NCBI RefSeq assembly: GCF_030490285.1
Contig: NZ_CP129884.1
Location: 1,984,001-2,048,000, forward strand
Source: Methylomonas montana
GTDB taxonomy: Bacteria; Pseudomonadota; Gammaproteobacteria; Methylococcales; Methylomonadaceae
Reading direction: 5' to 3'
Length of the DNA: 64,000 nt
Program-made: the position numbers and the translations under genes
Shown: one piece after another, positions 37,206 through 49,876 of the stretch
Layout of the letters: each line of letters starts with the position of its first letter
How positions within the stretch are numbered: position 1 is the stretch's first letter
Notes under the pieces: generated by a model
The model's database searches: none
Seen by the model: only the letters and a program-made list of their open reading frames with translations
Told to the model about the DNA's origin: nothing

Positions 37206-38258
37206 CTATTTCTGAGGAGCTTCGCTGGCGACTAAGCCAAAACCGCCGTTATTCTCGGTGCAAACCCGTTCGTACTGGTCCAGGATCGGTTCCTTTAGTG
37301 GCTCCTTGCCGACGTAATTAGCCGGTTCCACTTCGAAGTGCCAGCCGTTGGGCTGATCCTTCGCGGTCCATTTGCGGGCCGGTACCGTCACGGTAAACGG
37401 CCGGGTGTAGACGGTCGGATCGGTCAACACGGCCTCATAGGTATAACGGTCGCCATTGTTGCTGAATATGTAACGTTCCTGGATATGGCCGTTTTCGCTG
37501 ATGAACTCGCCGGAGCGGCCGAACAAGGCCTTACCGTTTTGGTTGGTGACATCCACCACCAGCGTGTTGCCTTCCCAGTGGCCGCGCGAATCGCCGTTCC
37601 AGAGTTTGATGTTCTCCGGCAAATGCGGTTTGCCGTCCAGATGGATGATGCGGGTGCCGGAGTTGAATTGAAACAGCACATAGCCCGGATATTGGCTGAT
37701 CTCGTAGCCGTGCCAAAACAGCGATTTCGGCACGCCGGCCGGTGCGCAGCGGGCCAATGGCTCGATGTATTCCGGTTTGGTTGGGTTGTGGAAACCGACT
37801 TGAAATGCCTTGACCTTTTCCAGCGCCCAGGGCTGAAACGGCACCTGGCCGTCTACGGGGTCGCTGACCCGGCTGGGCGCGCGTTCTTCGCGCGGACCTT
37901 TTGCCAAGCGGTTGGGATTGGGATCGTTGAGGATGCCACCTTGCGGGTCGGTAAAGTTATTGTGATTGGCGATGGTGTTCGACCAATGGCCTTGCACGTC
38001 CGGTTGGCCGTCGGCGGTTTTCGGGCCGGTCCATTTACCGGAAACGATCTTGGGGAAACTTCTTTCCTGTTCGATGCCGGGGCCGCCTAGCTTTAGCGGC
38101 TTGGTGGCTGGCTGAGCCGGTTTCGCGGCGGCCGGTTCCGGTTTGGTTTCCGGTTTTTTTGCCTCGTCGGCAGCATGTATGCTTGGAGCGGCAGTGAGCA
38201 TTACGCTGATTGCCAGCCCGGAAACTAGTGCCGAGCGACCTGAGTTAATTTGTGTCAT
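37206..38258 (-). CDS. Exported protein with GDSRGHWEGNTLVVDV motif (first paralogue)
   Basis: A 350-residue secreted protein. A signal peptide (cleavage near HAA-DE) is followed by a Pro/Lys/Ala-rich linker (35-55) and a globular domain with GQPDVQGHWSN, LFQFNSGTRIIHLDGKPH and LWNGDSRGHWEGNTLVVDV. The downstream part includes RYIFSNNGDRYTYEAVLTDP. This uncharacterised domain is shared with the next gene upstream (LGDSRAHWEGDTLVVDV). Only two Cys are in the mature part, and no catalytic motif is known. GAGGA precedes the ATG. The genomic link to cytochrome and membrane proteins suggests a periplasmic role. Confidence 0.78.
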   Translation of the reverse strand: MTQINSGRSALVSGLAISVMLTAAPSIHAADEAKKPETKPEPAAAKPAQPATKPLKLGGPGIEQERSFPKIVSGKWTGPKTADGQPDVQGHWSNTIANHNNFTDPQGGILNDPNPNRLAKGPREERAPSRVSDPVDGQVPFQPWALEKVKAFQVGFHNPTKPEYIEPLARCAPAGVPKSLFWHGYEISQYPGYVLFQFNSGTRIIHLDGKPHLPENIKLWNGDSRGHWEGNTLVVDVTNQNGKALFGRSGEFISENGHIQERYIFSNNGDRYTYEAVLTDPTVYTRPFTVTVPARKWTAKDQPNGWHFEVEPANYVGKEPLKEPILDQYERVCTENNGGFGLVASEAPQK

Positions 38259-38282: not shown

Positions 38283-39080
38283 TTAGGGTTTATTCGGTTT
38301 AGGGGGATAAGCGTCGTCGTAGTCCAGCGTAAAGCGATAGTCTTCGATCAACTGAAAGTCTTTTTCCCGATGCCGATGCAAGATCACCGATAAGTTCCAG
38401 GGTTTGCTAAATACCTTGGGGTCTTCGATGGTGGCTTTGTATTCGACGGTGTTGGGGTCCAGAAAAGCCCATTTTTCGACGACATGTAGCGCGTCGCTAT
38501 GATAATTGCCGGCCCGGTCGAACCAGGTCTTGTCGTTGAAATGCTTGACGTCGACCACCAGCGTATCGCCCTCCCAATGCGCGCGGGAATCGCCCAACCA
38601 CCAGTCGTACGGGTCTTTCGGATGGTCGGTGGCGTCGGTGTGTATGGTTCTGACCGAATGGCCGAATTGATGCACCAGCGTCAAATCCTGTTTGCGTTGG
38701 AAGATCTGAAACGGTTCCGGGTAATAAATGCCGCGCGGTACGCCCAGCGTGTAGCCTTTCAAGGCGGGATCGTCGGTCGCGCGAGCCTCGAAGTTTTTCT
38801 TCTTTTGTTCCAGAGCCGCCGGCAGATAGGGCAGGTAATAGCCTTCGACCACACCGGCGCCGGGTGGGGCGTCTTTACGATTGGAATGCGGCTCCAGGTC
38901 GTAATCGGCGGGATTGGTGGTTTGCCAAATACCGGAAAAGTCGGGTTTGCCGTTGGCAAGTCTCGGGACTTTTAGGGTGGCCGCTGCCGCGTTGTGGACG
39001 GATAGCAAGCACAACAGCAAACCGGCCAGCAGCGCGTGGGCGGTCAGCCGGTTAAGGCATTGATAGCGTGCGGTATTCAA
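38283..39080 (-). CDS. Exported protein with GDSRAHWEGDTLVVDV motif (second paralogue)
   Basis: About 265 residues. I choose the TTG at 39080 because AGGAG lies eight bases upstream and the protein then starts just before a signal peptide (cleavage near AAA-TL). The globular part has GKPDFSGIWQTTNPADYD, RTIHTDATDHPKD and WWLGDSRAHWEGDTLVVDV, and ends in YPPKPNKP. It is homologous to the 350-residue protein downstream but shorter and without its linker. The pair probably have related but distinct roles. Function unknown. Confidence 0.76.
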   Translation of the reverse strand: MNTARYQCLNRLTAHALLAGLLLCLLSVHNAAAATLKVPRLANGKPDFSGIWQTTNPADYDLEPHSNRKDAPPGAGVVEGYYLPYLPAALEQKKKNFEARATDDPALKGYTLGVPRGIYYPEPFQIFQRKQDLTLVHQFGHSVRTIHTDATDHPKDPYDWWLGDSRAHWEGDTLVVDVKHFNDKTWFDRAGNYHSDALHVVEKWAFLDPNTVEYKATIEDPKVFSKPWNLSVILHRHREKDFQLIEDYRFTLDYDDAYPPKPNKP

Positions 39081-39192
39081 AAATATTCTCCTGGTCTTAA
39101 GCGTCGTCGCGCAACGTAGCCGGGTAGTTGGCAAGTGTCTTTACCCGCAATACGTCCGCGTATTGATCAATCGGTCGGCGGCAAAATTATTG

Positions 39193-39624
39193 TTACTGAG
39201 CGGCACCTTGTGTTTGGGCGTCGGGCGCGTCTTGAGCGCCGCCGGTTTTGACGCTACGGCCGTCGGACAGCACGGTGGTTACCGCGTAGCCGAAATCCTT
39301 GCCGTTTTTGGCCCGATAGCCTTGGATGGTCACTTCGCTGCCGACCGGCAGACTGGCCTTGGTGATGCCTTTTTGTTTCAGGCTGAACGGCGCGCCGAAT
39401 TCGAATCCCCAATTCTTGGCGCTGCCGTCGGTTTGCTTGACGTCCAGGTATAGCCAGCTATGCGGGTTGACCAATTCCAGTTTGGTAACCACACCTTTCA
39501 GTTCGATTGGTTTTTCGGCGTCGAACTCCGCTGAAAAGGCGTGATGGGCTTCGGCCGGCGGCGCCGTTAAGGCGAGTAGTCCGCTTACCAATATCCCGCT
39601 GAGCAGTTTGCCGTTTATGTTCAT
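39193..39624 (-). CDS. DUF6152-like periplasmic protein
   Basis: A 143-residue secreted protein, first gene of the operon. Its signal peptide ends near AEA-HH, so the mature protein starts HHAFSAEFDAEKPIELKG, the characteristic opening of this family. The domain continues with GVVTKLELVNPHSWLYLDV. The His-His at the new N-terminus could bind a metal such as copper; that is inference. AGGAAA lies ahead of the ATG. It precedes the two GDSR-type exported proteins and the DUF6644 pair. Confidence 0.8.
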   Translation of the reverse strand: MNINGKLLSGILVSGLLALTAPPAEAHHAFSAEFDAEKPIELKGVVTKLELVNPHSWLYLDVKQTDGSAKNWGFEFGAPFSLKQKGITKASLPVGSEVTIQGYRAKNGKDFGYAVTTVLSDGRSVKTGGAQDAPDAQTQGAAQ

Positions 39625-39959: not shown

Positions 39960-41612
39960 TTATTTGGATAGATCGGCAGTTTGGGCGGAAAAGGCGGAAA
40001 TAAATCGATCCCGCAGTTTATCCATCCCCCAAGACGGCGCATCGCCGGCCGGCAGCATGCCTTCCGACCACTGCCAATCTTCCACGGCATCTATCACCTT
40101 GGCATCGCGGCTGATCAGATGTACCAACACATCGCGACTATCCGATTCGCCGGTCACGAACGGCGCGGGTTGGTGATCGCCCAGTACCAGGATCACCAGA
40201 TTGTCGTCGCCATAGGACTCCGCATAGGAGACGATATTGGCTAAGGCGTATTCGATGGATTTTCGATATTGCTCGCGAATCCGCTCGGTATTTTGCCAGA
40301 CCACTTCCGGGGTGTCGCCGGCTCGCGCTTGATTGAATATGCTGCCATCGCCGACCTGATGCCAATCTACGAGTTGGGGCAGCGGCGTCCAGGGTGCGTG
40401 CGAAGAGATCAAGGCCAGTTCGGCCATCAGCGGTTGGCGCGAGCCGGGTTGGCGCTCCAAAACTTGCAGGGCCGATAGCGTGTATTGATCCGGCATGGTG
40501 ATCCAGTTGAAAGGCTGGCCTTTGTAGCCCAGGTCCTGCGCGGCGTAGATGCGGTCGTAGCCAAAATATTCGCCTTGCGGCCATGCCATGGTATGAGCGG
40601 GCTGTACGGCCACGGTTCGCCAGCCGGCTCGCCGAAACAGGCGATTCAGCGATGGGCGTTGGCTCATCACCAAACGGTCGTAGCGGGTCTGGCTATTGAT
40701 CCATAAGCCGGACATTAGGGTGCCATGCGCCAGCCAGCTGATGCCACCGTAAGTCGGCGAGGCTAGGTAAGCACTGCGCGCCGACAGGCCGTTCGCGGCC
40801 AACTTAGCGCTACTTTGTTGCAGTAGCGGGCGGATATGCTCAGCGTAATCGGCTTTATCAAGCACGGTCCGGCCGTACGATTCGATGAACACCACTAGCA
40901 GGTCCTTGCCTTTCAATTTCTCGAATAATGCGCTGTCCGGCACCGCTGCATAAGGGTCGTTATCGACGATGTTGTTAAAGCTTTCCAGGTCGGCCATGCC
41001 GCTACGGATGCTGGAAACATGCGTCGCCATCAGGTCGTAAAACGGTTTGCCGGCGTATGGCCGGCCGGCGAAGGCACAGATTATCCAAACCAAAAGGCCG
41101 GCGAGTAAACCCACGCCACTGGTTTTTGTCGAGCTTTGCAACAGCACTTGCACTTGGCGCAGCATAGCATTGGTCAGCAGGAAAATACCGGTCAATAGCG
41201 CGACTATCAAGCCTGCGACCACCATGGCGCCAATCCGGCCGATGGCGCCTTTCAGCAGATTCATGCCGTCGGCCGGAAACCGGGAATCGAGTATCGGGTT
41301 GAATGGCCGGTCGAAAACCTGGTATGCCGCGATGTCGGCCATTTTAAAGATAATGCCCGTCGCCAGCAGGCCGGCGGCGAGTAGGCGAAACAGCGTGCCT
41401 GTTCGGCCCGGCACCAGCAAAACCAGACCGAGTAATAATGCTTCCAGCGGTAAATAGGCAAAGGCCGCCGGGGTGATCGAACTGAGGCGGTTGGGGATCA
41501 GCAAGGCCGCCCATACATACATCAAGGCGAACATATTCAAGCCTGTCGTTAGCTGGCTGGTCCTGTGACGATTGAAAAGTCTGTGATTGCCTAGCATGTC
41601 TGTGCTTGCCAT
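39960..41612 (-). CDS. Membrane sulfatase/phosphoglycerol-transferase-fold protein (LtaS-like)
   Basis: About 550 residues: five transmembrane helices (to about residue 190) then a large periplasmic alkaline-phosphatase-superfamily domain. The domain has VVFIESYGRTVLDK (metal-binding Glu), the likely nucleophile region YGGISWLAHGTLMSG, and LGDHQPAPFV near the end (metal Asp/His). Such enzymes transfer or remove phospho-alcohol or sulfate groups on lipids and glycans. The ATG at 41612 is favoured over a TTG nine codons earlier; it remains uncertain. It is divergent from a CDP-alcohol phosphatidyltransferase, so both may act on the same phospholipid-type product. Confidence 0.83.
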   Translation of the reverse strand: MASTDMLGNHRLFNRHRTSQLTTGLNMFALMYVWAALLIPNRLSSITPAAFAYLPLEALLLGLVLLVPGRTGTLFRLLAAGLLATGIIFKMADIAAYQVFDRPFNPILDSRFPADGMNLLKGAIGRIGAMVVAGLIVALLTGIFLLTNAMLRQVQVLLQSSTKTSGVGLLAGLLVWIICAFAGRPYAGKPFYDLMATHVSSIRSGMADLESFNNIVDNDPYAAVPDSALFEKLKGKDLLVVFIESYGRTVLDKADYAEHIRPLLQQSSAKLAANGLSARSAYLASPTYGGISWLAHGTLMSGLWINSQTRYDRLVMSQRPSLNRLFRRAGWRTVAVQPAHTMAWPQGEYFGYDRIYAAQDLGYKGQPFNWITMPDQYTLSALQVLERQPGSRQPLMAELALISSHAPWTPLPQLVDWHQVGDGSIFNQARAGDTPEVVWQNTERIREQYRKSIEYALANIVSYAESYGDDNLVILVLGDHQPAPFVTGESDSRDVLVHLISRDAKVIDAVEDWQWSEGMLPAGDAPSWGMDKLRDRFISAFSAQTADLSK

Positions 41613-41812
41613 GCGGAGTCGGTTAAATCGAAGCGGCAAACGTGTTGCCGATGACGAGGACTTAAGTTTGATGGGGCGAGCATGTTGGATGATAAGCGTT
41701 GATTATTCAGTGAAGGCAGATCGTGTTGGCAGCCGTGTAAGCAAAAACAACGCCAATTTGGCATATCTCATGCTTAAGTGTATCGATTAATCTGACTCAG
41801 CGATATAAGGAC

Positions 41813-42931
41813 ATGCAACCAAACCCGGATGCCGGCTTAAATTTTTTAAAACGCGAACTGCGAGAGATAACCTGGCTAGGATGCGGGGTGCTACTGGCCG
41901 GTTTCTGTTTATTAGGTCTTGTGGAGGATTGGCGATTAGCCGACCAATGGCTAGGGCAGGCAGGTCTGCTCTGGGCATATGTCTGCCTGTGTATCGGGCG
42001 GCGGTTGGCACTGAATCGCGCCAGTGCGGAATCGGCTCTCTACGGCAGCCTGGGTTGGGGTAACCGTTTGACTATCCTGCGCGGCGGTTTGATTGCTTTG
42101 ACCGGCGGTTTTCTGTTCATGGATCAAGCGGCTGCCGACCTCGTTTGGCTGCCGGCGTTGCTGTACACCTTGGCCGCGATCCTCGACCGGCTGGATGGCT
42201 TTGCTGCCCGCCGTAGTGGGCAGGTCAGTCTGTTGGGTAACGAACTGGATATTAGTTTCGATGCGCTGGGGCTGGTGATTGCGCCGCTATTGGCAATCGG
42301 TCTGGGAAAACTGCATGGCTCTTATCTGCTATTAAGCGTTGCATTTTACGTTTATCGATGGGGCTTGCAGCGCCGCAGTTTACTGGGGTTGCCGTTACAC
42401 GCCTTGCCGGCAAATCCGCTACGTCGCACCCTGGCCGGCTTTCAAATGGCTTTCGTCGCCGTGGCGCTATGGCCGCTGCTCGATCCGGAACTGACCACTA
42501 TCGCGGGCTTTGCGTTCATGCTGCCGGTATTGTTCGGTTTTGCCGCGGACTGGTGGGTGGTTTGTGGACTGATACAGCCGCAGGCCTATCACTATTTAGC
42601 GGAATGGAGCGAGCGTTTTTTCCAGCCGGGCTTGCGGATATTACTGGCGCTGCTGGTGTTTTTACTGATGCCAGGCTCAATCGATACGGCCGACAAGTTG
42701 TTGGTTATTGGCTTGCCCCTCGGAGCTAGCCTGATCCTGTTTGGCCTTGCGGGACGCTTGGGGACGCTGATTTTGATTACGCTGTTGGGTTGGCATGATC
42801 CGGGCGATGCCAGTCCTGTTGCGAGTTATTTAGTGATCTTTTCCGCCAGTTGGATTTTGCTGCTAGGCACCGGCCGCTGTAGCCTTTGGCGATGGGGCGA
42901 CGACTGGATACAACGCTATGACGGTGCCTGA
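41813..42931 (+). CDS. CDP-alcohol phosphatidyltransferase family protein
   Basis: A 372-residue polytopic membrane protein with the complete family signature, DRLDGFAARRSGQVSLLGNE then LDISFD (D-x2-D-G-x2-A-R-x8-G-x3-D-x3-D). It transfers a phosphatidyl or similar group from a CDP-linked donor to an alcohol. It is about twice the size of PgsA-type enzymes: the extra C-terminal half (from about residue 210) is five or more further helices of unknown role. AAGGA precedes the ATG. It overlaps the next gene by one base (TGATG). The acceptor alcohol cannot be told from sequence. Confidence 0.85.
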   Translation: MQPNPDAGLNFLKRELREITWLGCGVLLAGFCLLGLVEDWRLADQWLGQAGLLWAYVCLCIGRRLALNRASAESALYGSLGWGNRLTILRGGLIALTGGFLFMDQAAADLVWLPALLYTLAAILDRLDGFAARRSGQVSLLGNELDISFDALGLVIAPLLAIGLGKLHGSYLLLSVAFYVYRWGLQRRSLLGLPLHALPANPLRRTLAGFQMAFVAVALWPLLDPELTTIAGFAFMLPVLFGFAADWWVVCGLIQPQAYHYLAEWSERFFQPGLRILLALLVFLLMPGSIDTADKLLVIGLPLGASLILFGLAGRLGTLILITLLGWHDPGDASPVASYLVIFSASWILLLGTGRCSLWRWGDDWIQRYDGA

Positions 42932-43905
42932 TGTCCTGGTTGAAAGCGTTTCCTGTCTTGTTGTGGTTGCTGGCGTTGATCCTGGTAGGATCGGTGCTAA
43001 GCCAATTGCCGCTTGCCGCTATTACACGGGCTCTCGGCACGCTATCCTTCGGACAATGGTCGGCCTGGATAGCGTTGAACCTGGTCATTGTTTTACTGGC
43101 GACGCAACGCTGGCAGGTGCTTAGCGACCTGCTGAAATTGCCGGCGGGATTCGTCGAGCTGTTGATGATCCGCCAAGCCGGTCAAGCCGTCAGTTTCATC
43201 ACGCCAGGTCCGCAGTTTGGCGGCGAGCCATTACAGATTTTCTGGTTGTACAAGCGCTGCCGCGTGCCGCTGCACGGTGCTTTGCTAGCACTGGGCCTGG
43301 ATAGGTTTTACGAACTGTGGATCAACTTCAGCATTCTGGTCCTGGCAGTGCTATTGCTGTTGGCTTCACCGATAGGTGATGTCGCCAACTGGCAGGAAAT
43401 TCTGCTGATTCTGACCGGTATGTTGCTAACGTTATCTTCGCTGGGCTGGCTGCTTCTAAAGCAGCCTGAACGGGTATTTTCTTGGCTAAAACGCTTGGTC
43501 CGGCGCTGGCAACATCACCCACGACTACAACATATAGAAACGCACTGGCAGCGTCTGGGCGGCGATCTAAAGCGTGCCGTAAAGGAGCGGAAGCCGGCGT
43601 TGTTGAACGCCTTTATTCTCTCCGTCTTTGGCTGGGCCGGACTGCTAGCAGAGTTGTGGCTGTTGCTGAGCGTGTTCGATCTTGCCTTGGGTTTTTCCGC
43701 GTTCCTGGTCATTCTGGTCGCCATGCGTCTATCTTTCATGCTGCCGCTACCCGGCGGGGTCGGCTCGCTGGAAGCGGCGCTGTTTTGGGCTTTTCAATAC
43801 CTGAGTTTGCCCGCGGAGGCAGCCATCGGCCTGATGGCGCTAATGCGGTTACGAGATGGCGTGATGCTGATGGGGGGCTTGGGCTGTCTACGCGCCTTGA
43901 AATAA
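42931..43905 (+). CDS. UPF0104 / lysylphosphatidylglycerol-synthase-type transmembrane protein
   Basis: A 324-residue protein with about eight transmembrane helices and the family motifs ITPGPQFGGEPLQIFWLYKR and LPLPGGVGSLEAALFWAF. Only the membrane (flippase-like) domain of MprF is present; there is no aminoacyl-transferase domain. Homologues are found with glycosyltransferases and lipid enzymes and may move a lipid-linked product across the inner membrane. The start codon overlaps the stop of the CDP-alcohol transferase, so the two are coupled. Confidence 0.83.
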   Translation: MSWLKAFPVLLWLLALILVGSVLSQLPLAAITRALGTLSFGQWSAWIALNLVIVLLATQRWQVLSDLLKLPAGFVELLMIRQAGQAVSFITPGPQFGGEPLQIFWLYKRCRVPLHGALLALGLDRFYELWINFSILVLAVLLLLASPIGDVANWQEILLILTGMLLTLSSLGWLLLKQPERVFSWLKRLVRRWQHHPRLQHIETHWQRLGGDLKRAVKERKPALLNAFILSVFGWAGLLAELWLLLSVFDLALGFSAFLVILVAMRLSFMLPLPGGVGSLEAALFWAFQYLSLPAEAAIGLMALMRLRDGVMLMGGLGCLRALK

Positions 43906-44090
43906 GGAATCTGTTTCCATGAGAACAGGTGGTCAGCAAATCCTGTTTGTAGATCAACAACTATCGATCTGCAATGCTCTTCGACATCGCAATTCCCTTG
44001 GCTTTTAACGCGGCATGATAAATGCTCTTTATCGGAACTGTACCCTTACTCAAGGAATCCGTTTTGTTAACCCAAAAAGAGAGAAGATGA

Positions 44091-44780
44091 ATGAAAAAAA
44101 CTAGCTTTGTTGCCGGCCTGCTGGTTCTGAGTGCCAATACCGCTTTCGCGCAACAGCCGCCAGCCGAAGCCCCCAAACCCCCTTTGGGTTTTTTCGTGAC
44201 CAGCGCCGGTCCCGGTAAAGGGGCCGATTTGGGTGGGCTGGCAGGCGCCGACGCCCATTGCCAGAAACTGGCGAGTGAAGTGGGCGCGGGCAACCGGAAC
44301 TGGCGCGCCTATCTGAGTACCCAGGCTAGCGGCGATCAACCCGTCGTCAATGCTCGCGACCGCATCGGCAAGGGGCCGTGGGCCAATGCCAACGGTGCCA
44401 TCGTGGCTAACGATGTGGCGCATCTGCATGGCGACACCGTGGAGTTGGGCCAGCAAGGCAACAACCTGCATCGGCTGACCGCGCTGACTGAAAAGGGCGC
44501 GCCGATCAAGAGTTCCGGAGAAACTCCCAACCAGCATGACATCATCACCGGCACTAAGCCTGACGGCAGAGCCTACGCCGATGCCGCCGATCATACCTGT
44601 AAGAACTATACCAGCGGCGGCGAGGGCAGTGTTCGGGTCGGCCATTCCGACCGTACCAATGGCGGCAGAACCGGCGGCAACGTCTCCTGGAACTCCACCC
44701 ACGACAGCAAAGGTTGCAGCCAGGAAAACCTGGTCAGCACCGGTGGGGCGGGTTACTTCTATTGCTTCGCGGCAGATTAA
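44091..44780 (+). CDS. Exported lectin-like protein
   Basis: A 229-residue secreted protein with a signal peptide (cleavage near AFA-QQ) and a C-type-lectin-like or DUF1554-like fold. It has FFVTSAGPGKGADLGGLAGADAHCQ, WRAYLSTQ and a Cys-rich end (THDSKGCSQENLV, GYFYCFAAD). Four Cys of the mature part probably form two disulfides. It may bind sugars on the cell surface. The gene stands alone, with 185 bases before it in which no promoter was recognised. It lies between the two halves of the pterin/lipid gene set but is not obviously part of it. Confidence 0.75.
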   Translation: MKKTSFVAGLLVLSANTAFAQQPPAEAPKPPLGFFVTSAGPGKGADLGGLAGADAHCQKLASEVGAGNRNWRAYLSTQASGDQPVVNARDRIGKGPWANANGAIVANDVAHLHGDTVELGQQGNNLHRLTALTEKGAPIKSSGETPNQHDIITGTKPDGRAYADAADHTCKNYTSGGEGSVRVGHSDRTNGGRTGGNVSWNSTHDSKGCSQENLVSTGGAGYFYCFAAD

Positions 44781-44803
44781 GGCTGCATGGGCTTAAGAAA
44801 ATT

Positions 44804-44874
44804 GTAGGATGTGCCGACGTTAGGAGGCGCATCGCTCGCGATTGATGCGCTTCACTCTGTTCAGCACATCCTAC
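44804..44874. repeat. GTAGGATG palindromic repeat
   Basis: Outer arms GTAGGATGTGC (44804-44814) / GCACATCCTAC (44864-44874) and inner arms GCGCATC / GATGCGC. This is the REP-like element widespread in gammaproteobacterial intergenic DNA. A 31-base half of it recurs at 45381-45411. Confidence 0.85.
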
Positions 44875-44896
44875 ATCTAAACCTTCAGGAATCGAC

Positions 44897-45322
44897 ATGA
44901 TCAAACAGCATTTTGATTTGATTATTGTTGCGCTAGTGGCGTTGTCCCTTGTCATGTATGACTGGGTGATCGATCTGATCCTCAACCTACTGCATTTTAT
45001 TTTTGAAATCATTCATATAGCGTACGAATGGTTTGAGTTGGGCATTGAACATACGGTGGAGCATCTGTTCCATACGTCCCGGCACGGCAGCCAGATCGTC
45101 ACATTCTATATTCTGCTGCTGATTGCCGGTTTATTGATGCGTTGGCTGTGGCGGATGTTGCCAAGTCTTTATCAACGCTTTAAACGATATACGCGACTGG
45201 CTTGGGCGTGCAGAAAAACGGAATTCAAAGCCTATTGGCTTTCGCTGACTCTATTCAACAAAGTGAAATTGCTGTCCACGGTGACGGGGATTGTTTTCCT
45301 GAGTTCTTTGTTTGTGATGTGA
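44897..45322 (+). CDS. Hypothetical membrane protein
   Basis: A 141-residue protein with three hydrophobic stretches (about 5-40, 68-88, 120-140) and a His-rich middle (EHTVEHLFHTSRHGSQ). No family is recognised. It begins MIKQHFDLIIVALVAL, with AGGAATCG just before the ATG. It sits alone between two copies of a palindromic repeat. Confidence 0.65.
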   Translation: MIKQHFDLIIVALVALSLVMYDWVIDLILNLLHFIFEIIHIAYEWFELGIEHTVEHLFHTSRHGSQIVTFYILLLIAGLLMRWLWRMLPSLYQRFKRYTRLAWACRKTEFKAYWLSLTLFNKVKLLSTVTGIVFLSSLFVM

Positions 45323-45380
45323 GTTTTGATTTATTGCTATTTCTAACCAGAGTTGGAAGCGTCGACTATCAATCGCGACC

Positions 45381-45411
45381 GATGCGCTTCACGATGTTCA
45401 GCGCATCCTAC
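45381..45411. repeat. Half copy of the GTAGGATG repeat
   Basis: 31 bases matching 28 of 31 with 44844-44874. Only the right arm is present. The rest of 45323-45602 shows no gene. Confidence 0.75.
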
Positions 45412-45602
45412 GGTCCTGATCGAGCCAATTCAATTTGAACTCGTGTTTTAGGAACAGCCAGCCAACAGAGTCTGCGTATCTATCAACAGTTTTTGCCTGG
45501 TCATTTGCAATAAATCCAGATTTATCAACATCTTAAAATCTGGCATGGATAATGACTGTACTTGGCTTATTTAGGGGGATTTTAAACCAAGGATGCGTGG
45601 CT

Positions 45603-45800
45603 ATGTTTAGAACTGAACGATTTCTTTCCGTCGTAAATCCGAATACCGGTTTAAGGGTATGGTACTTTTTAACCAGGGAAGGCCGGCAAGGCCCTTTTAC
45701 CTCAAAAACGAACGCCCAAATAGCGCTTCATGATTTCATCGTTAGCAGGACTAAACAAGGCAGCTCAAGCCGGCGGACCCGCTTATTAGCAAGCGGCTGA
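45603..45800 (+). CDS. Small conserved-type protein (DUF6316-like)
   Basis: A 65-residue cytoplasmic protein. The central part, GLRVWYFLTREGRQGPFTSK then NAQIALHDFI, matches my memory of the DUF6316 pattern (aromatic-FLTREG-GPF-SK). No function is known. The ATG at 45603 is taken because the family-like sequence begins there; an ATG at 45552 is also in frame. It is convergent with the glycosyltransferase gene. Confidence 0.6.
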   Translation: MFRTERFLSVVNPNTGLRVWYFLTREGRQGPFTSKTNAQIALHDFIVSRTKQGSSSRRTRLLASG

Positions 45801-45833
45801 TTGGCCTCGACTCTTCGGCGACAACATATTGCG

Positions 45834-46919
45834 CTATTCAATTCCGGCGTATAGATATTGCCGAATGATTTCGCAGGACTGATCCCAGCTGGGTTGACTG
45901 GTGAAGGCTATCAAGGCGTTTCTGCTCAATTGCATTAACAACTCTCGATTCTGATTCAGCTTCCGCAACAGATCGGCCAATGCTCTATGGTCTTCTGGGG
46001 CTATCAGATAACCATTGCGGTCATGATCGATAATTTCTTTGGCCGCTCCCGCCGTAGTACCAATCACTGGCAGACCGAATTGTTGGGCTTCCAGATAGAC
46101 GATGCCATAGCTTTCATAGGCGGAAGGCAATACCATCAGATGATGTTGCCGGTACAGGTCGGCGAGGGCTTGGCCTTGCACCGGTCCTATTAGAACTACC
46201 TGCGCCTGCAATCGTAAAGCGCTGACAAGTGCCCGAATATGCTCGACATAGCCAGGCTCCATATCCAGCCGCCCGGCGACTGTCACCCGAAAATCCTCGA
46301 CTGGAAGTTGGCTGAGTGCCCAAATCAACACATGTAAGCCTTTGCGGCGGATGAGGTTGCCCACGACCAGAATTCGTAACGAACCTGGCGCCAGCGCACG
46401 CTGTTGAATGGCGTTAAAATCAACGCCTGCATCCTGGAAATTATCGCCGGCCGGCACCGCGACGCAGTGAGCTGGTAATCCACCGTCCATTAACTCGCAC
46501 ACTTGCGCCAGTGTGGTTTGGCTGTTGGCGATGACGCCGGTTACGGATTTGAGATAGTAGCGCTCGATAGCCCGGTAAAACCAGGCGCTATAGCAGGGGT
46601 GATGATCGAAGCTGGTCAGCAGATGCGCCAGCGCTACTATCGGGATGGCGAGCTGCCGGCCTAGTCGCCGGTTTAGCAAAAATACCGACGGATGCACCAT
46701 GGCATCCTGAATAAGTATGTCGATCTCGGCGGCGGCGATCTGCTGCAGACAGTCGTTGCGGAAATTATCAGCCAGATGGCGCCAAACATTGCGCGGTGGC
46801 AGGCTAATAATCGTGACCTGTTCGCCCTGGCTTTGCAGATAAGACACCAGTTTGCGGTTGTACAGATAACCGCCGCTGACGGTCTCCATGTCTCCATAAA
46901 TCAACAGACCTATGCGCAT
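45834..46919 (-). CDS. GT4-family glycosyltransferase
   Basis: A 361-residue GT-B glycosyltransferase. The N-terminal acceptor domain opens with MRIGLLIYGDMETVSGGYLYN. The donor domain has VVGNLIRRKGLHVLIWAL and the GT4 EX7E motif in YESYGIVYLEAQQFGLPVIG. It transfers a sugar from a nucleotide donor with retention of configuration; donor and acceptor are unknown. It starts 13 bases after the PTPS homologue, and is therefore probably the last gene of a RibA-RibD-dehydrogenase-PTPS-GT set. Confidence 0.87.
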   Translation of the reverse strand: MRIGLLIYGDMETVSGGYLYNRKLVSYLQSQGEQVTIISLPPRNVWRHLADNFRNDCLQQIAAAEIDILIQDAMVHPSVFLLNRRLGRQLAIPIVALAHLLTSFDHHPCYSAWFYRAIERYYLKSVTGVIANSQTTLAQVCELMDGGLPAHCVAVPAGDNFQDAGVDFNAIQQRALAPGSLRILVVGNLIRRKGLHVLIWALSQLPVEDFRVTVAGRLDMEPGYVEHIRALVSALRLQAQVVLIGPVQGQALADLYRQHHLMVLPSAYESYGIVYLEAQQFGLPVIGTTAGAAKEIIDHDRNGYLIAPEDHRALADLLRKLNQNRELLMQLSRNALIAFTSQPSWDQSCEIIRQYLYAGIE

Positions 46920-46932
46920 AGGCTTTAACCCG

Positions 46933-47310
46933 TTAGAACGTCAGTCGGTAAGCCGCCCAGCATTGATCGTTTTCCCAAAGTTTTGCCCGCAGCCTGCCGG
47001 TCCCAGGCGGGTTGATGGCGGCGAGTAATTTTTCGCAGATGATGCGGCTGAAATGCTCGATGCTGGGATTGAGGCCTGCGAATTCCGGTTTGTCGTTCAG
47101 CAGTTGGTTGCCGAATTCCGTGACGATACCATCCAGCGCGGCTTCGATGGCGACGATGTCCACCAGATAGCCATGTTGGTCGAGTTGGGTGCCGTCGATA
47201 CGGACTTCCGCGACGTAATGATGGGCGTGAGGTTGATTTTCGCTGCCCCAATCGCCGCCGATTAAATAATGGTTGGCGATGAAATCACGGCTTACGGCTA
47301 CGCTGTACAT
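46933..47310 (-). CDS. 6-pyruvoyl-tetrahydropterin synthase / QueD family protein with Glu in place of catalytic Cys
   Basis: A 125-residue member of the T-fold PTPS family. The zinc ligands are H14 (ANHYL), H28 and H30 (PHAH). In QueD and classical PTPS a catalytic Cys lies four residues before the second His (CxxxHGH); here that place is Glu24 (ENQPHAH). The same Cys-to-Glu change defines the PTPS-III class, which releases 6-hydroxymethyl-dihydropterin from dihydroneopterin triphosphate. The C-terminal catalytic Glu is likely in AKLWEND. The real substrate is uncertain. The neighbouring glycosyltransferase and RibA/RibD-type genes point to a pteridine or pyrimidine product rather than queuosine. 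Confidence 0.85.
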   Translation of the reverse strand: MYSVAVSRDFIANHYLIGGDWGSENQPHAHHYVAEVRIDGTQLDQHGYLVDIVAIEAALDGIVTEFGNQLLNDKPEFAGLNPSIEHFSRIICEKLLAAINPPGTGRLRAKLWENDQCWAAYRLTF

Positions 47311-47343
47311 ATTGGTTTTCCTAAGGGCTTTTGTATGTACTTT

Positions 47344-47472
47344 GCGTAGGTTGATGACAACGTGCAGTCCAACATTTCTAAGCCAAAGCCCTCATTATTT
47401 GGCACATACTTTAATGAATGCAAATACGCTTGGCTTGAGTTGTTGGGCTTCCTGCGTCAGCCCAACCTACGC
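47344..47472. repeat. GCGTAGGTTGGG-type imperfect inverted repeat
   Basis: GCGTAGGTTG (47344-47353) pairs with CAACCTACGC (47463-47472), and inner segments AGTCCAACA and AAGCCAA pair with TTGGCTT and TGTTGGGCT. The ~130-base element fills the gap between the dehydrogenase and PTPS genes and looks like a small MITE. Confidence 0.75.
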
Positions 47473-47488
47473 TAAGTGAATACTGGTT

Positions 47489-48529
47489 TTAATAAATAAA
47501 AATGGCTTGCAAGACTTTTTCCGGTGTTTGGTCCAGGAGCTGATAAACACTGCTGGCTTGTTCCAACGCGGCACGGTGGCTGATCAGCTGCTGCGACTGC
47601 ACCCGCCTAATCATGTCCCAGGCAAGCTCGAAGCGGCGCGCTTTATCCCAGCGGCCGCTCAGCTCCGGTGCAATGCTGCTGACCTGGCTGCTGATTAGTT
47701 TTATCCGATTACGATGTGCCACCCCACCTAATTGGATGTGGGCGGATTTGTTGCCGTACCAACTGCCGATGACGATGCGGCCGGAATAACTGCATAACTC
47801 GATGGCCAGGTTCAAGGCATCCGGCACGCCGCTGACTTCGTAGATCAGATCGGCACCGGAATCCGGCGTTGTCGATAAATCCACGGGTAGTCGTAAAGCG
47901 CGTTTCAATGCGGTTATTTGGCTGTCCTCGACTGGATCGAAGACCTGTTTTACCCCTAATTGCAATGCGCGGTCGCGGCGCCCGGCGATGCTGTCCACGG
48001 CATATAGTTGCGTCAACGGAAACTGCGCCAACACGCTGGCTAGCAACAATCCGACAATGCCTTGTCCCAAAACTACCACGCGCTCGCCCAGCGTCGGATT
48101 GCCATCCAGCACCAGATTCACCGCCGTTTCCATGTTGGCTAAAAATACCGCTGCTTCCGGTTCTACATCCTCAGGCAGGGCGATGAGTTGGTCTGGCGCG
48201 GCAATGAAATGACTGGCGTGCTGCTGAAACGAAAACACGCGTTTATTTAGCCAACCGGCATCGATGCCATCGCTAATTTGTTCGACGCGGCCCGCGCAGG
48301 CATAACCGTACTGTAAGGGATAAGCGGTTTGTTGCTGCAACGATGCCAACGAGGCATCCAAAGCAATATCGGCGGGTAGTTGTCCCCGGTACACCAGCAT
48401 TTCCGTGCCGGCGCTGATCGCCGAACAGATAGTCTTGACCAATAATTGTCCGCGCCCTGGCGTTGGCAACGGCTGTTCGCGGATTTCGACCCGGTACGGT
48501 TCGGTAAACCAGAGCTGACGGGCATTCAC
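47489..48529 (-). CDS. Medium-chain dehydrogenase (zinc-type alcohol dehydrogenase superfamily)
   Basis: A 346-residue oxidoreductase of the MDR fold with a Rossmann NAD(P) site VVVLGQGIVGLLLASVL. The usual catalytic Cys-His pair is changed: the segment reads TICSAISAGTEMLVYRGQLP, as in BchC-type and related dehydrogenases. Zinc binding is therefore doubtful. The GTG at 48529 overlaps the stop of the RibD-type gene (GTGA), so the two are translationally coupled. The substrate is unknown, but coupling to RibA/RibD homologues implies a step on a pyrimidine/pterin-derived or sugar intermediate. Confidence 0.84.
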   Translation of the reverse strand: MNARQLWFTEPYRVEIREQPLPTPGRGQLLVKTICSAISAGTEMLVYRGQLPADIALDASLASLQQQTAYPLQYGYACAGRVEQISDGIDAGWLNKRVFSFQQHASHFIAAPDQLIALPEDVEPEAAVFLANMETAVNLVLDGNPTLGERVVVLGQGIVGLLLASVLAQFPLTQLYAVDSIAGRRDRALQLGVKQVFDPVEDSQITALKRALRLPVDLSTTPDSGADLIYEVSGVPDALNLAIELCSYSGRIVIGSWYGNKSAHIQLGGVAHRNRIKLISSQVSSIAPELSGRWDKARRFELAWDMIRRVQSQQLISHRAALEQASSVYQLLDQTPEKVLQAIFIY

Positions 48530-49242
48530 GACAGAACCGGCTCCCGATAGTGCAGGTTGCCCCACATGATCAGATCGTCGCCCAGCATCTGCGAATATAG
48601 GGGGCGAATTTGCGGTAGCTGGCTTTTGCAGCCTAGCTCCAAATTACCGACGCCCTTGTAACCGCCCACCAAGGTTGGCGCAACCGTCAACACCAGCGCG
48701 TCGGCCAATTGCGCTTTCAAAAACGCAGTGATTACCTGGCTGCCGCCTTCGACCATCAGTGTCCTGATGCCTTTTTCCCAAAGTAAATTGAGAGCTTCGC
48801 GCAAATTGACGCGGCCTTCCGCATCGCCTTCGAGTGTAATGATGTCAGCCTTGCCGTCAAAGCCACTGTCATTTTTTAAACGGGTCAACACCCAGCAGTT
48901 TTTATCCAAACGCTGGCAAAGCCTTGCCGTGGGTGGCATGCGCAAATGGCTGTCTAGCACGATGGGCTGAGGATTGGCGCCGGACCATTCGCGTACGGTC
49001 AGTTGCGGGTCGTCGGTCAGCACCGTGCCAATCCCGACCAATATGCCGTCATGCAGGCTACGCAGCTGATGGGTCAACTTCATCGATTCGGTGCCGCTCA
49101 GGCCCAGGGTTTCACCGGCGCGGGTGGTGATGCTGCCATCCCAGCTCTGTGCGTAGCTCAGTGTGACAAACGGGCGTTTGGCGGACTCTGCGGCATTTTT
49201 CTGCGCAGTCAGCCAATGCTCAATTTGTTGGTTCACAATCAT
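48526..49242 (-). CDS. RibD C-terminal (reductase) domain protein
   Basis: A 238-residue protein of the dihydrofolate-reductase-like fold found at the C-terminus of RibD. That domain reduces the ribosyl group of the 5-amino-6-ribosylamino-uracil phosphate formed after GTP cyclohydrolase II. Motifs: PFVTLSYAQSWDGSITT, GILVGIGTVLTDDPQLTVR and the NADPH loop LMVEGGSQVITAF. The deaminase half of RibD is absent. It overlaps the RibA gene by 23 bases and the dehydrogenase by four. A stand-alone reductase in this context suggests a side branch from riboflavin synthesis. Confidence 0.87.
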   Translation of the reverse strand: MIVNQQIEHWLTAQKNAAESAKRPFVTLSYAQSWDGSITTRAGETLGLSGTESMKLTHQLRSLHDGILVGIGTVLTDDPQLTVREWSGANPQPIVLDSHLRMPPTARLCQRLDKNCWVLTRLKNDSGFDGKADIITLEGDAEGRVNLREALNLLWEKGIRTLMVEGGSQVITAFLKAQLADALVLTVAPTLVGGYKGVGNLELGCKSQLPQIRPLYSQMLGDDLIMWGNLHYREPVLS

Positions 49243-49876
49243 GGGCTGTTCTAAGGTTTGCTACGGACGGATATGGTCTGAGTTGCAGCAGGTGATCCAT
49301 GCGGCGGGCTTTGGTTTGCAGGTAGCTCTCGTTGTCCGGATTGACCGCGGCTTCCAGTGGGAAACGCGCATTGATTCGGATACCCTCGTTTTCCAGCGCG
49401 CTAATTTTTAAGGGATTGTTGGTCATCAGGCGCACCGATTTGACGCCAAGGTTTTCCAGAATGCGCGCCGCCAAGGAATAATCCCGTTCGTCCGCGCCGT
49501 GACCCAGCAAAAGGTTGGCGTCGACGGTGTCGTAGCCTTGATCCTGCAGGTTATAAGCCCGCAGTTTTTGCAACAGACCGATGCCGCGCCCCTCTTGACG
49601 CAGATAAACCAAGACGCCGGCGCCTTGGCTGGCGATCAATTGCAGCGAGCGGTCCAGTTGCTCACCGCAGTCGCAACGTCTGGAACCCAGTACGTCACCG
49701 GTAAAACATTCCGAATGGATGCGCACCAGAACATTCTCGGCCTCGGCGACGCTCCCCATCACAAAAGCCAGATGTTCTTTTTGATCCAGGGTATTGCTGT
49801 AATAACAGAGTTGAAAGTCGCCGTAAGCAGTCGGAATACGGGAGGCGGTGATTCGGGAAACGGCAGGCTTAGTCAT
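49220..49876 (-). CDS. ribA: GTP cyclohydrolase II
   Basis: A 218-residue enzyme that opens the imidazole ring of GTP to give 2,5-diamino-6-ribosylamino-pyrimidinone phosphate, formate and diphosphate. The zinc cysteines are in HSECFTGDVLGSRRCDCGEQ, and the catalytic region is YLRQEGRGIGLLQKLRAYNL. It lacks a RibB (DHBP synthase) domain. It is the first gene of a coupled minus-strand set with the RibD-type reductase and a dehydrogenase. It may be a paralogue dedicated to that set rather than the housekeeping riboflavin enzyme; I cannot tell from this window alone. Confidence 0.92.
   Translation of the reverse strand: MTKPAVSRITASRIPTAYGDFQLCYYSNTLDQKEHLAFVMGSVAEAENVLVRIHSECFTGDVLGSRRCDCGEQLDRSLQLIASQGAGVLVYLRQEGRGIGLLQKLRAYNLQDQGYDTVDANLLLGHGADERDYSLAARILENLGVKSVRLMTNNPLKISALENEGIRINARFPLEAAVNPDNESYLQTKARRMDHLLQLRPYPSVANLRTAHDCEPTN

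Follow-up and report, generated by a model that had tools for sequence, protein, structure and literature searches.

In a 64,000-nucleotide stretch of the complete, 4.63-Mb genome of Methylomonas montana (the window, genome positions 1,984,001-2,048,000), we have analysed a cluster of eight genes that joins enzymes of two kinds. One half encodes RibA, a stand-alone RibD reductase domain (RibD_C), a medium-chain dehydrogenase (MDR), a PTPS homologue and a GT4 glycosyltransferase; the other encodes a CDP-alcohol phosphatidyltransferase, a UPF0104 membrane protein and an LtaS-like transferase. This set of genes is kept across bacteria and haloarchaea, and in some haloarchaea the enzyme of its first step is replaced by a non-homologous one. 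We regard it as almost certain that both halves form one functional unit, and very probable that the pathway starts with an aminopyrimidine derived from GTP. The conserved set has apparently not been described as a pathway. With moderate confidence, our best overall reading is that the unit makes a GTP-derived ring compound that is glycosylated and linked to lipid.

Conservation of the gene set within and beyond Methylomonas

That the two halves belong together is indicated by their co-inheritance within the genus. Among 37 Methylomonas genomes, strong matches to MDR, the CDP-alcohol transferase, UPF0104 and the LtaS-like protein were found in 13, 13, 12 and 13, respectively, and all four occur in 12, i.e. 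in 12 of the 13 genomes bearing MDR. Conversely, MDR is carried by 12 of the 13 genomes with the CDP-alcohol transferase and by all 12 with UPF0104. For MDR and the transferase (both in 12, MDR only in 1, transferase only in 1, neither in 23), Fisher's test gives p = 8.8e-8, a value that ignores relatedness and physical linkage. MDR was not found in 24 of the 37 genomes, some of them incomplete, and G017 (77% complete) is the sole one of these 24 with lipid genes, namely the CDP-alcohol transferase and LtaS. The GT4 gene lies directly beside PTPS in 12 Methylomonas loci and near MDR in most loci of the nonredundant set described below. The laboratory methanotroph Methylomonas sp. LW13 (locus L058) likewise has the cluster and the lipid genes.

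Beyond the genus, with MDR as the marker gene, loci of relatives were taken as the best 80 of 510, ranked by MDR similarity. Among 91 clustered loci, which include near-duplicates (G-numbered and named copies of one place), MDR is present in 89, GT4 in 77, RibD_C in 71, PTPS in 70, RibA in 61, UPF0104 in 57, the CDP-alcohol transferase in 51, an S-adenosylmethionine-dependent methyltransferase in 46 and the LtaS-like protein in 32; one family from this clustering of open frames, f13, is apparently a reverse-frame shadow of the PTPS gene, turning up at loci where the clustering lacks PTPS and a further search detects it. Rearranged but still grouped, MDR, PTPS and GT4, with the CDP-alcohol transferase at least from the lipid half, occur in Gammaproteobacteria, Alphaproteobacteria, Actinomycetota, Chloroflexi and haloarchaea. 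For example, in Cellvibrio (L073), Pseudohongiella (L076) and Saccharospirillum (L094), the methyltransferase and GT4 genes run opposite to RibA-RibD_C-MDR-PTPS, relative to which the UPF0104-CDP-alcohol transferase pair is turned back again. That the gene order is reshuffled yet the company is retained is the usual sign of a shared function. Three loci with the cluster (L084, L108 and L117) come from metagenome bins titled Klebsiella pneumoniae, titles that look mislabelled.

The association was also seen in a sample that was not chosen by neighbourhood. An even draw of 370 gammaproteobacterial genomes gave 26 with an MDR at E <= 1e-20, and 20 of the 25 loci outside the window genome were counted (G183, G280, G284, G363 and G427 being excluded), some of which end at contig ends. 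At a profile threshold of 50 bits (L166 was counted at 56 bits), these 20 loci hold PTPS in 17, GT4 in 16, the CDP-alcohol transferase in 15, RibD_C in 13, the methyltransferase in 13, UPF0104 in 10, RibA in 9, a creatininase in 5 and LtaS in 3. The MDRs are mostly distant: over their best-matching stretch, 16 of the 20 share just 29-40% identity with the query. By chance, a CDP-alcohol transferase would be expected in ~1.3% of random 20-kb stretches, given the three copies in the window genome, versus the 15 of 20 found.

A nonredundant set was built from 113 loci, 109 of them with MDR, and reduced to 91 by a 90% identity cut. The "Gamma" group of this set holds all loci not placed elsewhere by their record titles, and its profile missed UPF0104 in L138, L141 and L150, where the gene is annotated (and confirmed by Pfam in L138 and L141). 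In a comparison of protein distances from which seven duplicate loci had been dropped, the distances of the CDP-alcohol transferase and UPF0104 correlate with those of MDR (0.89 and 0.89) as do those of RibA and RibD_C (0.88 and 0.90); since no unrelated control gene was included, common descent alone may explain these values.

Loci from other phyla and from plasmids further place the two halves side by side. In the Chloroflexi loci L115 and L120, the genes for the CDP-alcohol transferase, UPF0104, RibA, RibD_C, MDR, PTPS, GT4 and methyltransferase lie on one strand, without LtaS. MDR is found in 29 plasmid records, including those of haloarchaea, Rhizobiales, Rhodobacterales, Streptomyces, Microbacterium and Thiodictyon, and a CDP-alcohol transferase is annotated within ~10 kb in 9 of the 16 plasmid MDR loci examined (L136, L138, L139, L141, L142, L149, L150, L155 and L157). 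A 59-kb Microbacterium plasmid carries a compact CDP-alcohol transferase-MDR-PTPS-GT4-methyltransferase-UPF0104 set and RibD too. In Agrobacterium pAt and Rhizobium SL42, genes for a sulfatase, a flippase, the CDP-alcohol transferase and RibA face MDR-PTPS-GT4-methyltransferase, after which come RibD and a cytochrome b. On a Streptomyces fungicidicus plasmid, a RibA with Met is found in company with MDR, PTPS, GT4, the methyltransferase, the CDP-alcohol transferase and a creatininase.

The haloarchaeal loci, of which 8 from 12 records were examined (L135, L136, L148, L149 and L155-L158), bear on the first step. In three of them (L135, L155 and L157), a GTP cyclohydrolase III gene lies just before MDR and overlaps it (PF05165, E 2.2e-82 for L155). 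As an unrelated GTP cyclohydrolase III thus stands in RibA's place, the conversion of GTP to an aminopyrimidine ribotide is the best-supported step of the pathway. The CDP-alcohol transferase is present in four of the eight loci and a creatininase in one. In three haloarchaea, a Gfo/Idh/MocA-type gene precedes the CDP-alcohol transferase (Pfam for L136 and L155) and is fused to an aldo/keto reductase in L136; the transferase may therefore act directly on a sugar alcohol as acceptor.

The preliminary description of this DNA doubted that the two halves belong together, and named the lack of a conserved neighbourhood in related genomes as what would speak against its candidate, undescribed glycoconjugate pathway. 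Co-inheritance in 12 of 13 genomes and the rearranged loci of distant organisms indicate that the halves do belong together, and the conserved neighbourhood reaches well outside Methylomonas. The candidate is thereby supported as a conserved unit, of which the glycoconjugate chemistry is the inferred part.

Several further genes were observed near the cluster. Genes annotated as cytochrome b adjoin RibD or the CDP-alcohol transferase in seven loci from Alphaproteobacteria and Chromatiales (PF01292 in the one tested). A YceI-like family (f15) is near the methyltransferase or the cluster in nine other loci, e.g. L075:16613-17218 (Pfam on L075). In L110 (11032-11715) and five other Chloroflexi loci, a gene of family f22 with PF04029, the 2-phosphosulfolactate-phosphatase family, follows MDR and could be the missing phosphatase. 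Genes for MdoH/OpgH-type glucosyltransferases are found near the cluster or the lipid genes at L137:7073-8875, L147:6098-8011 and L145:7472-9037 and in L094 and L123.

Enzymes of the ring half and the lipid half

RibA has the features of a GTP cyclohydrolase II. Its residues 7-198 align with 2bz0 (E 6.9e-61), and it retains the three Cys of the Cys motif and RQEGRGIGL, which we take to be the zinc and catalytic motifs. It also has a Tyr at the site matching the catalytic Tyr105 of the E. coli enzyme. A Tyr occupies this site in 83 of 84 readable sequences, duplicates and three housekeeping copies being counted, while a RibA beside a creatininase on a Streptomyces plasmid (L139:14581-15240) has Met there. 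The best solved relative of RibD_C is 2azn, a putative 5-amino-6-(5-phosphoribosylamino)uracil reductase that we assume to be an archaeal enzyme acting before deamination, and the next is the diamino-pyrimidine reductase 6p8c. As to the type of reductase, no cluster member reaches the archaeal or the bacterial NCBIfam equivalog cut-off, and the order of the two scores varies.

In MDR, the His of the zinc-ligand motif GHE is replaced by an invariant Tyr (GYA or GYT) in 13 of 13 aligned relatives; the site was also matched to the solved 6ie0, with an alignment that is weak in that half. The protein does not have the set of Cys and GHE ligands that marks a zinc-dependent alcohol dehydrogenase. 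In the same alignment, Arg, His and Lys residues at 284-311 are invariant, and their character would suit a phosphorylated substrate. The AlphaFold model (pLDDT 82) gave MDR-fold matches in Foldseek and no substrate.

In the window PTPS, Glu24 replaces the catalytic Cys, and all three zinc His and the anchor Glu113 are kept. Among the homologues with a readable Cys site, seven duplicate loci having been dropped, none of 115 has Cys, 92 have Glu and 23 have Ala; the zinc ligand His30 is lost in 23 of 116, the Ala type having neither Cys, Glu nor this His. The Glu that we presume to anchor the pterin ring is kept in 113 of 113 readable sequences. The window protein therefore lacks the combination of Cys and three zinc His that defines PTPS/QueD types I and II. 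It shares the Glu-for-Cys exchange of PTPS-III; the other mark of that type, standing in for a missing FolB, does not apply, as FolB is encoded in the genome. A PTPS-III-like cleavage as the general reaction was considered and is weakened by the 23 of 115 relatives with Ala and without the zinc His.

The CDP-alcohol transferase carries the complete family motif, D-x2-DG-x2-AR-x8-G-x3-D-x3-D, at residue 125, which places it in this family. Across 29 sequences, the DG, A, R, G, D and D of the motif do not vary, and its first D hardly does. For both this protein and GT4, the closest solved structures are too distant to assign a substrate. The UPF0104 protein falls in the flippase-like family TIGR00374. 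The LtaS-like protein has a single sequence match in the PDB at E <= 0.01, LtaP (4uop, E 1.1e-6), which is also the best Foldseek match of its AlphaFold model (pLDDT 87; TM 0.37/0.50); no substrate emerged. Its GDHQ and SSHAPW motifs are invariant in 19 sequences. Its TTG start is uncertain: one in-frame stop lies inside the matched span in six relatives, and called frames are often shorter (534-555 residues, some up to 580).

The proposed pathway and its alternatives

From what is known of their families, we infer the first two steps. RibA would open GTP to give 2,5-diamino-6-ribosylamino-pyrimidinone 5'-phosphate, a step that would fall to GTP cyclohydrolase III in the archaeal variant, in some loci with a creatininase-type deformylase. 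The reductase-only RibD would then convert the ribose to a ribityl chain, leaving the pyrimidine un-deaminated. The roles proposed for the remaining steps, from the reactions of MDR and PTPS and the acceptor of the sugar to lipid attachment, flipping and final use, are hypothetical. The zinc-less MDR could oxidise a side-chain hydroxyl, perhaps at C2'; the MDR class offers a precedent in its polyol-phosphate 2-dehydrogenases. Oxidation at C2' would give a 1-deoxy-2-keto chain, as GTP cyclohydrolase I does via an Amadori rearrangement, and closure on the 5-amino group would give dihydroneopterin monophosphate. If C2' is the site, the 5-amino group could thus close on the ketone to form a ring of the 7,8-dihydroneopterin-phosphate type without FolE. 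The Cys-less PTPS homologue may hold the ring via its conserved Glu and close or trim the side chain, by a chemistry other than that of PTPS or QueD. GT4 would attach a sugar, after which the methyltransferase would act in many other loci, not in the window. The CDP-alcohol transferase would join a lipid phosphate with the conjugate or with a sugar alcohol that carries it; the best-known branches of this family make phosphodiester-linked lipids. UPF0104 would flip the lipid conjugate, and the LtaS-like enzyme, where present, would use or modify it outside the cytoplasm.

We favour a lipid-linked glycosylated pterin, as no simpler product would give all the parts a role. The parts differ in how firmly they can be held: for the lipid link we see the balance as even, and the closed pterin ring, by the route proposed, is somewhat more doubtful. 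It is conceivable, though unlikely, that the ring is never closed, and that the product is a glycosylated, lipid-linked ribityl-diaminopyrimidine or results from another oxidation of the side chain, PTPS just binding the 2-amino-4-oxo-pyrimidine edge. The complete lack of the catalytic Cys among the 115 PTPS homologues and the loss of the zinc His in one subtype would fit such a role; moreover, the conserved Glu could hold a pyrimidine as well as a pterin, and a reductase followed by a dehydrogenase would be a detour to pterin in a genome that has FolE. Against this, a 2'-ketone beside a free 5-amino group would be expected to cyclise spontaneously, and the functions described for PTPS-I, -II and -III all concern pterins (PMC5041015).

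An alternative of similarly low probability is that the cluster serves two separate functions, in which RibA, RibD_C, MDR, PTPS, GT4 and the methyltransferase make a soluble pterin-type glycoside, and the CDP-alcohol transferase, UPF0104 and the LtaS-like protein make an independent anionic lipid or glycan, the two being linked just by regulation or habitat. Sets of one kind do occur, the ring set without the lipid set in G023 and the lipid set with no ring set nearby at six Rhodobacterales plasmid loci, and the MdoH-type genes, seen close to five loci, may point to periplasmic glucans. What argues for one unit instead is the single-strand arrangement in L115 and L120, the compact joint set on the Microbacterium plasmid and the co-inheritance in Methylomonas; the transferase and UPF0104 distances follow MDR as closely as do those of RibA and RibD_C, in the comparison that had no unrelated control gene.

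We would like to point out the observations that weigh against a glycosylated, lipid-linked product of a single pathway. Within the genus, G023 has the MDR core and no lipid genes. In the distance comparison, GT4 and the methyltransferase follow MDR poorly (0.33 and 0.42), and LtaS follows it less closely than the remaining genes (0.77). L180 and L182 have MDR, the transferase and LtaS, with no PTPS or GT4 nearby. Of the 18 nonredundant Chloroflexi loci, 9 of which extend 7.5 kb to either side, 14 lack RibA near MDR, 14 lack RibD_C there, and LtaS was found in none. Similarly, the eight haloarchaeal loci examined yielded no RibD; housekeeping copies of RibA and RibD might serve loci without their own RibA or RibD_C. 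On plasmids, 7 of the 16 MDR loci have no CDP-alcohol transferase nearby, L146 (Streptomyces anthocyanicus) has a cluster-type PTPS with no other cluster gene in 18 kb, and L159 (Streptomyces) has the CDP-alcohol transferase alone among transposases. The six Rhodobacterales loci (L143-L145 and L160-L162, six examined of 29 records) carry the transferase and a sulfatase/LtaS-type protein with no ring genes nearby; UPF0104 is present in four of them, cytochrome b in five and GT4 in five, and they are possibly a salvage version. These loci mostly have an ABC transporter as well. The two subtypes of PTPS, Glu/His and Ala/Ala, make a single shared mechanism doubtful. Finally, the five loci with both a creatininase and a RibA were predicted to have a Tyr-less RibA that halts at the formylated intermediate (Met for Tyr); this holds solely in L139 and failed in four of five, as L173, L174, L175 and L179 keep Tyr.

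A variant of a known route, be it riboflavin overproduction, a PTPS-III-like folate bypass or queuosine/7-deazapurine synthesis, is very improbable: RibA, RibD_C and PTPS are members of those families and the Plasmodium enzyme that makes 6-hydroxymethyl-dihydropterin also has Glu for Cys (PMC2229834), but the riboflavin operon, FolE, FolB and a Cys-bearing PTPS are elsewhere in the genome, 24 of the 37 Methylomonas genomes, incomplete ones among them, lack MDR, and the other PTPS subtype has neither Cys nor Glu.

If the product is indeed a lipid-linked pterin, it would represent a new lipid class and a new route to pterins. We may speculate further, with little confidence, that such molecules form a widespread class of membrane lipids, synthesised from GTP independently of FolE, whose redox-active pterin headgroups face outwards and serve as lipid-bound electron carriers or to deliver reduced pterins across the membrane. 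A lipid-linked pterin would, if true, bear on the transfer of pterins to the periplasm. A 2026 review describes the mechanism that brings pterins to the periplasm as unknown and states that a pterin efflux system has yet to be identified (PMC13259868). The pathway, if true, would also correct the annotations "6-carboxytetrahydropterin synthase" and "zinc-binding alcohol dehydrogenase" on these genes.

Relation to known systems and layout of the window

The solved protein closest to the window PTPS is SCO6650 (3d7j) of Streptomyces coelicolor. In papers of 2008, SCO6650 reportedly lacks zinc and the catalytic triad and is of unknown function, and SCO6655, a GTP cyclohydrolase II paralogue, is said to halt at the formylated pyrimidine. 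To our knowledge, both were studied as single proteins, with no pathway or product.

Pteridine glycosides of cyanobacteria and Chlorobium are made by a pteridine glycosyltransferase whose substrate is supplied by FolE, PTPS and sepiapterin reductase. In Methylomonas montana, FolE is outside the cluster and the cluster PTPS lacks the catalytic Cys; clusters of this kind instead begin with RibA or GTP cyclohydrolase III, the RibD reductase and MDR, and they have lipid genes attached. The likeness would lie in the pairing of a pterin with a glycosyltransferase that uses nucleotide sugars (PMC5683033). The known glycosyltransferase acts on tetrahydrobiopterin. The PTPS-III folate bypass of Plasmodium shares Glu for the active-site Cys (PMC2229834); in contrast, the window genome has FolB, and an Ala subtype occurs in the same type of cluster.

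The LtaS-like protein has distant likeness in fold and motifs to the LtaP/LtaS/OpgB phosphotransferases, which transfer lipid headgroups outside the cytoplasm, and its lipid-phosphate donor could be made next door. LtaS is defined by the transfer of glycerol phosphate from phosphatidylglycerol to a glycolipid, whereas the cluster protein is likened to it by predicted fold and motifs.

The archaeal pair of GTP cyclohydrolase III and a deformylase, and the bacterial BrbF, perform the same two-step opening of GTP. GTP cyclohydrolase III belongs to a family different from RibA and opens the same ring, and BrbF, which is annotated as a creatininase, has been proven to act as a formamidase on the intermediate (PMC9478397). 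Those routes serve riboflavin, whereas their counterparts here sit with MDR, PTPS, GT4 and lipid genes.

Among the papers listed by open-access full-text searches, none describes the gene set, and a description in a subscription journal is possible. The cluster appears new at the pathway level, because each known pathway compared failed in a defining feature or gave no decision. A gene set kept across two domains of life, with one step taken by an unrelated enzyme in some archaea, points to a real pathway whose product is seemingly unnamed.

Riboflavin, folate and queuosine roles for the cluster were rejected, as the genes for these pathways sit elsewhere in the genome. A ribD (363 aa)-ribE-ribBA stretch, named from homology and gene order, lies at ~2,103-2,107 kb, some 70-73 kb from the cluster on the same chromosome, and holds one of the four RibA domains of the genome. 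FolE, FolB (PF02152) and a Cys-bearing QueD-like PTPS are all encoded elsewhere too. A Pfam scan of the cluster proteins found no RibD deaminase half and no further rib gene, so the cluster does not have the make-up of a riboflavin operon. The methyltransferase was not found in the window's genome, by a search that had no positive control and therefore carries no weight.

The preliminary description had rightly concluded that this is no riboflavin operon; the riboflavin genes that it found missing are indeed missing from the cluster, though not from the genome. Where it had asked for a second ribA and a full ribD, the genome holds three further RibA domains and the ribD of 363 aa, and its other ground for refutation, this ribA being the sole one and complemented by riboflavin genes elsewhere, thus does not apply. 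It had the positions and domains of the eight proteins (Table 1) and the full motif of the CDP-alcohol transferase right. Its medium-chain dehydrogenase stands as to family, not as an ordinary zinc enzyme, the zinc ligands being replaced in the family alignment, and the gene that it called lectin-like has merely a sub-threshold match to DUF1554.

Table 1. Genes of the cluster and one possible accessory gene, in window coordinates
Gene product	Position	Strand	Domain evidence
RibA, GTP cyclohydrolase II, 218 aa	49220..49876	-	PF00925 E 1.5e-68
RibD reductase domain, stand-alone, 238 aa	48526..49242	-	PF01872 E 4.3e-39; no deaminase domain
Medium-chain dehydrogenase (MDR), 358 aa	47489..48565	-	PF00107 E 1.2e-10
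PTPS/COG0720 homologue, 125 aa	46933..47310	-	PF01242 E 3.1e-24
GT4 glycosyltransferase (Glycos_transf_1), 361 aa	45834..46919	-	PF00534 E 1.2e-33
DUF1554/LenA-like small protein, possible accessory	44091..44780	+	sub-threshold domain matches
UPF0104/LPG_synthase_TM flippase-like membrane protein, 324 aa	42931..43905	+	PF03706 E 4.4e-29; TIGR00374
CDP-alcohol phosphatidyltransferase, 372 aa	41813..42931	+	PF01066 E 5e-12
LtaS/LtaP-like alkaline-phosphatase-fold membrane transferase, 559 aa, start uncertain	39960..41639	-	PF00884 E 3.8e-12

All eight named domains score above their Pfam cut-offs. From the coordinates, the frames of RibA and RibD_C overlap by 23 nt and those of RibD_C and MDR by 40 nt; a gap of 178 nt separates MDR from PTPS, and one of 13 nt PTPS from GT4. 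The lipid genes begin ~2 kb past GT4. There, the start of UPF0104 overlaps the stop of the CDP-alcohol transferase by 1 nt, and the LtaS-like gene is divergent from this pair. Two proteins further on (38283-39134 and 37206-38258) have no Pfam match at E <= 0.001 and adjoin a DUF6152 gene (39193-39624). The DUF1554/LenA-like gene adjoins the lipid genes in Methylomonas-type loci and is found in 11 of the 91 clustered loci.

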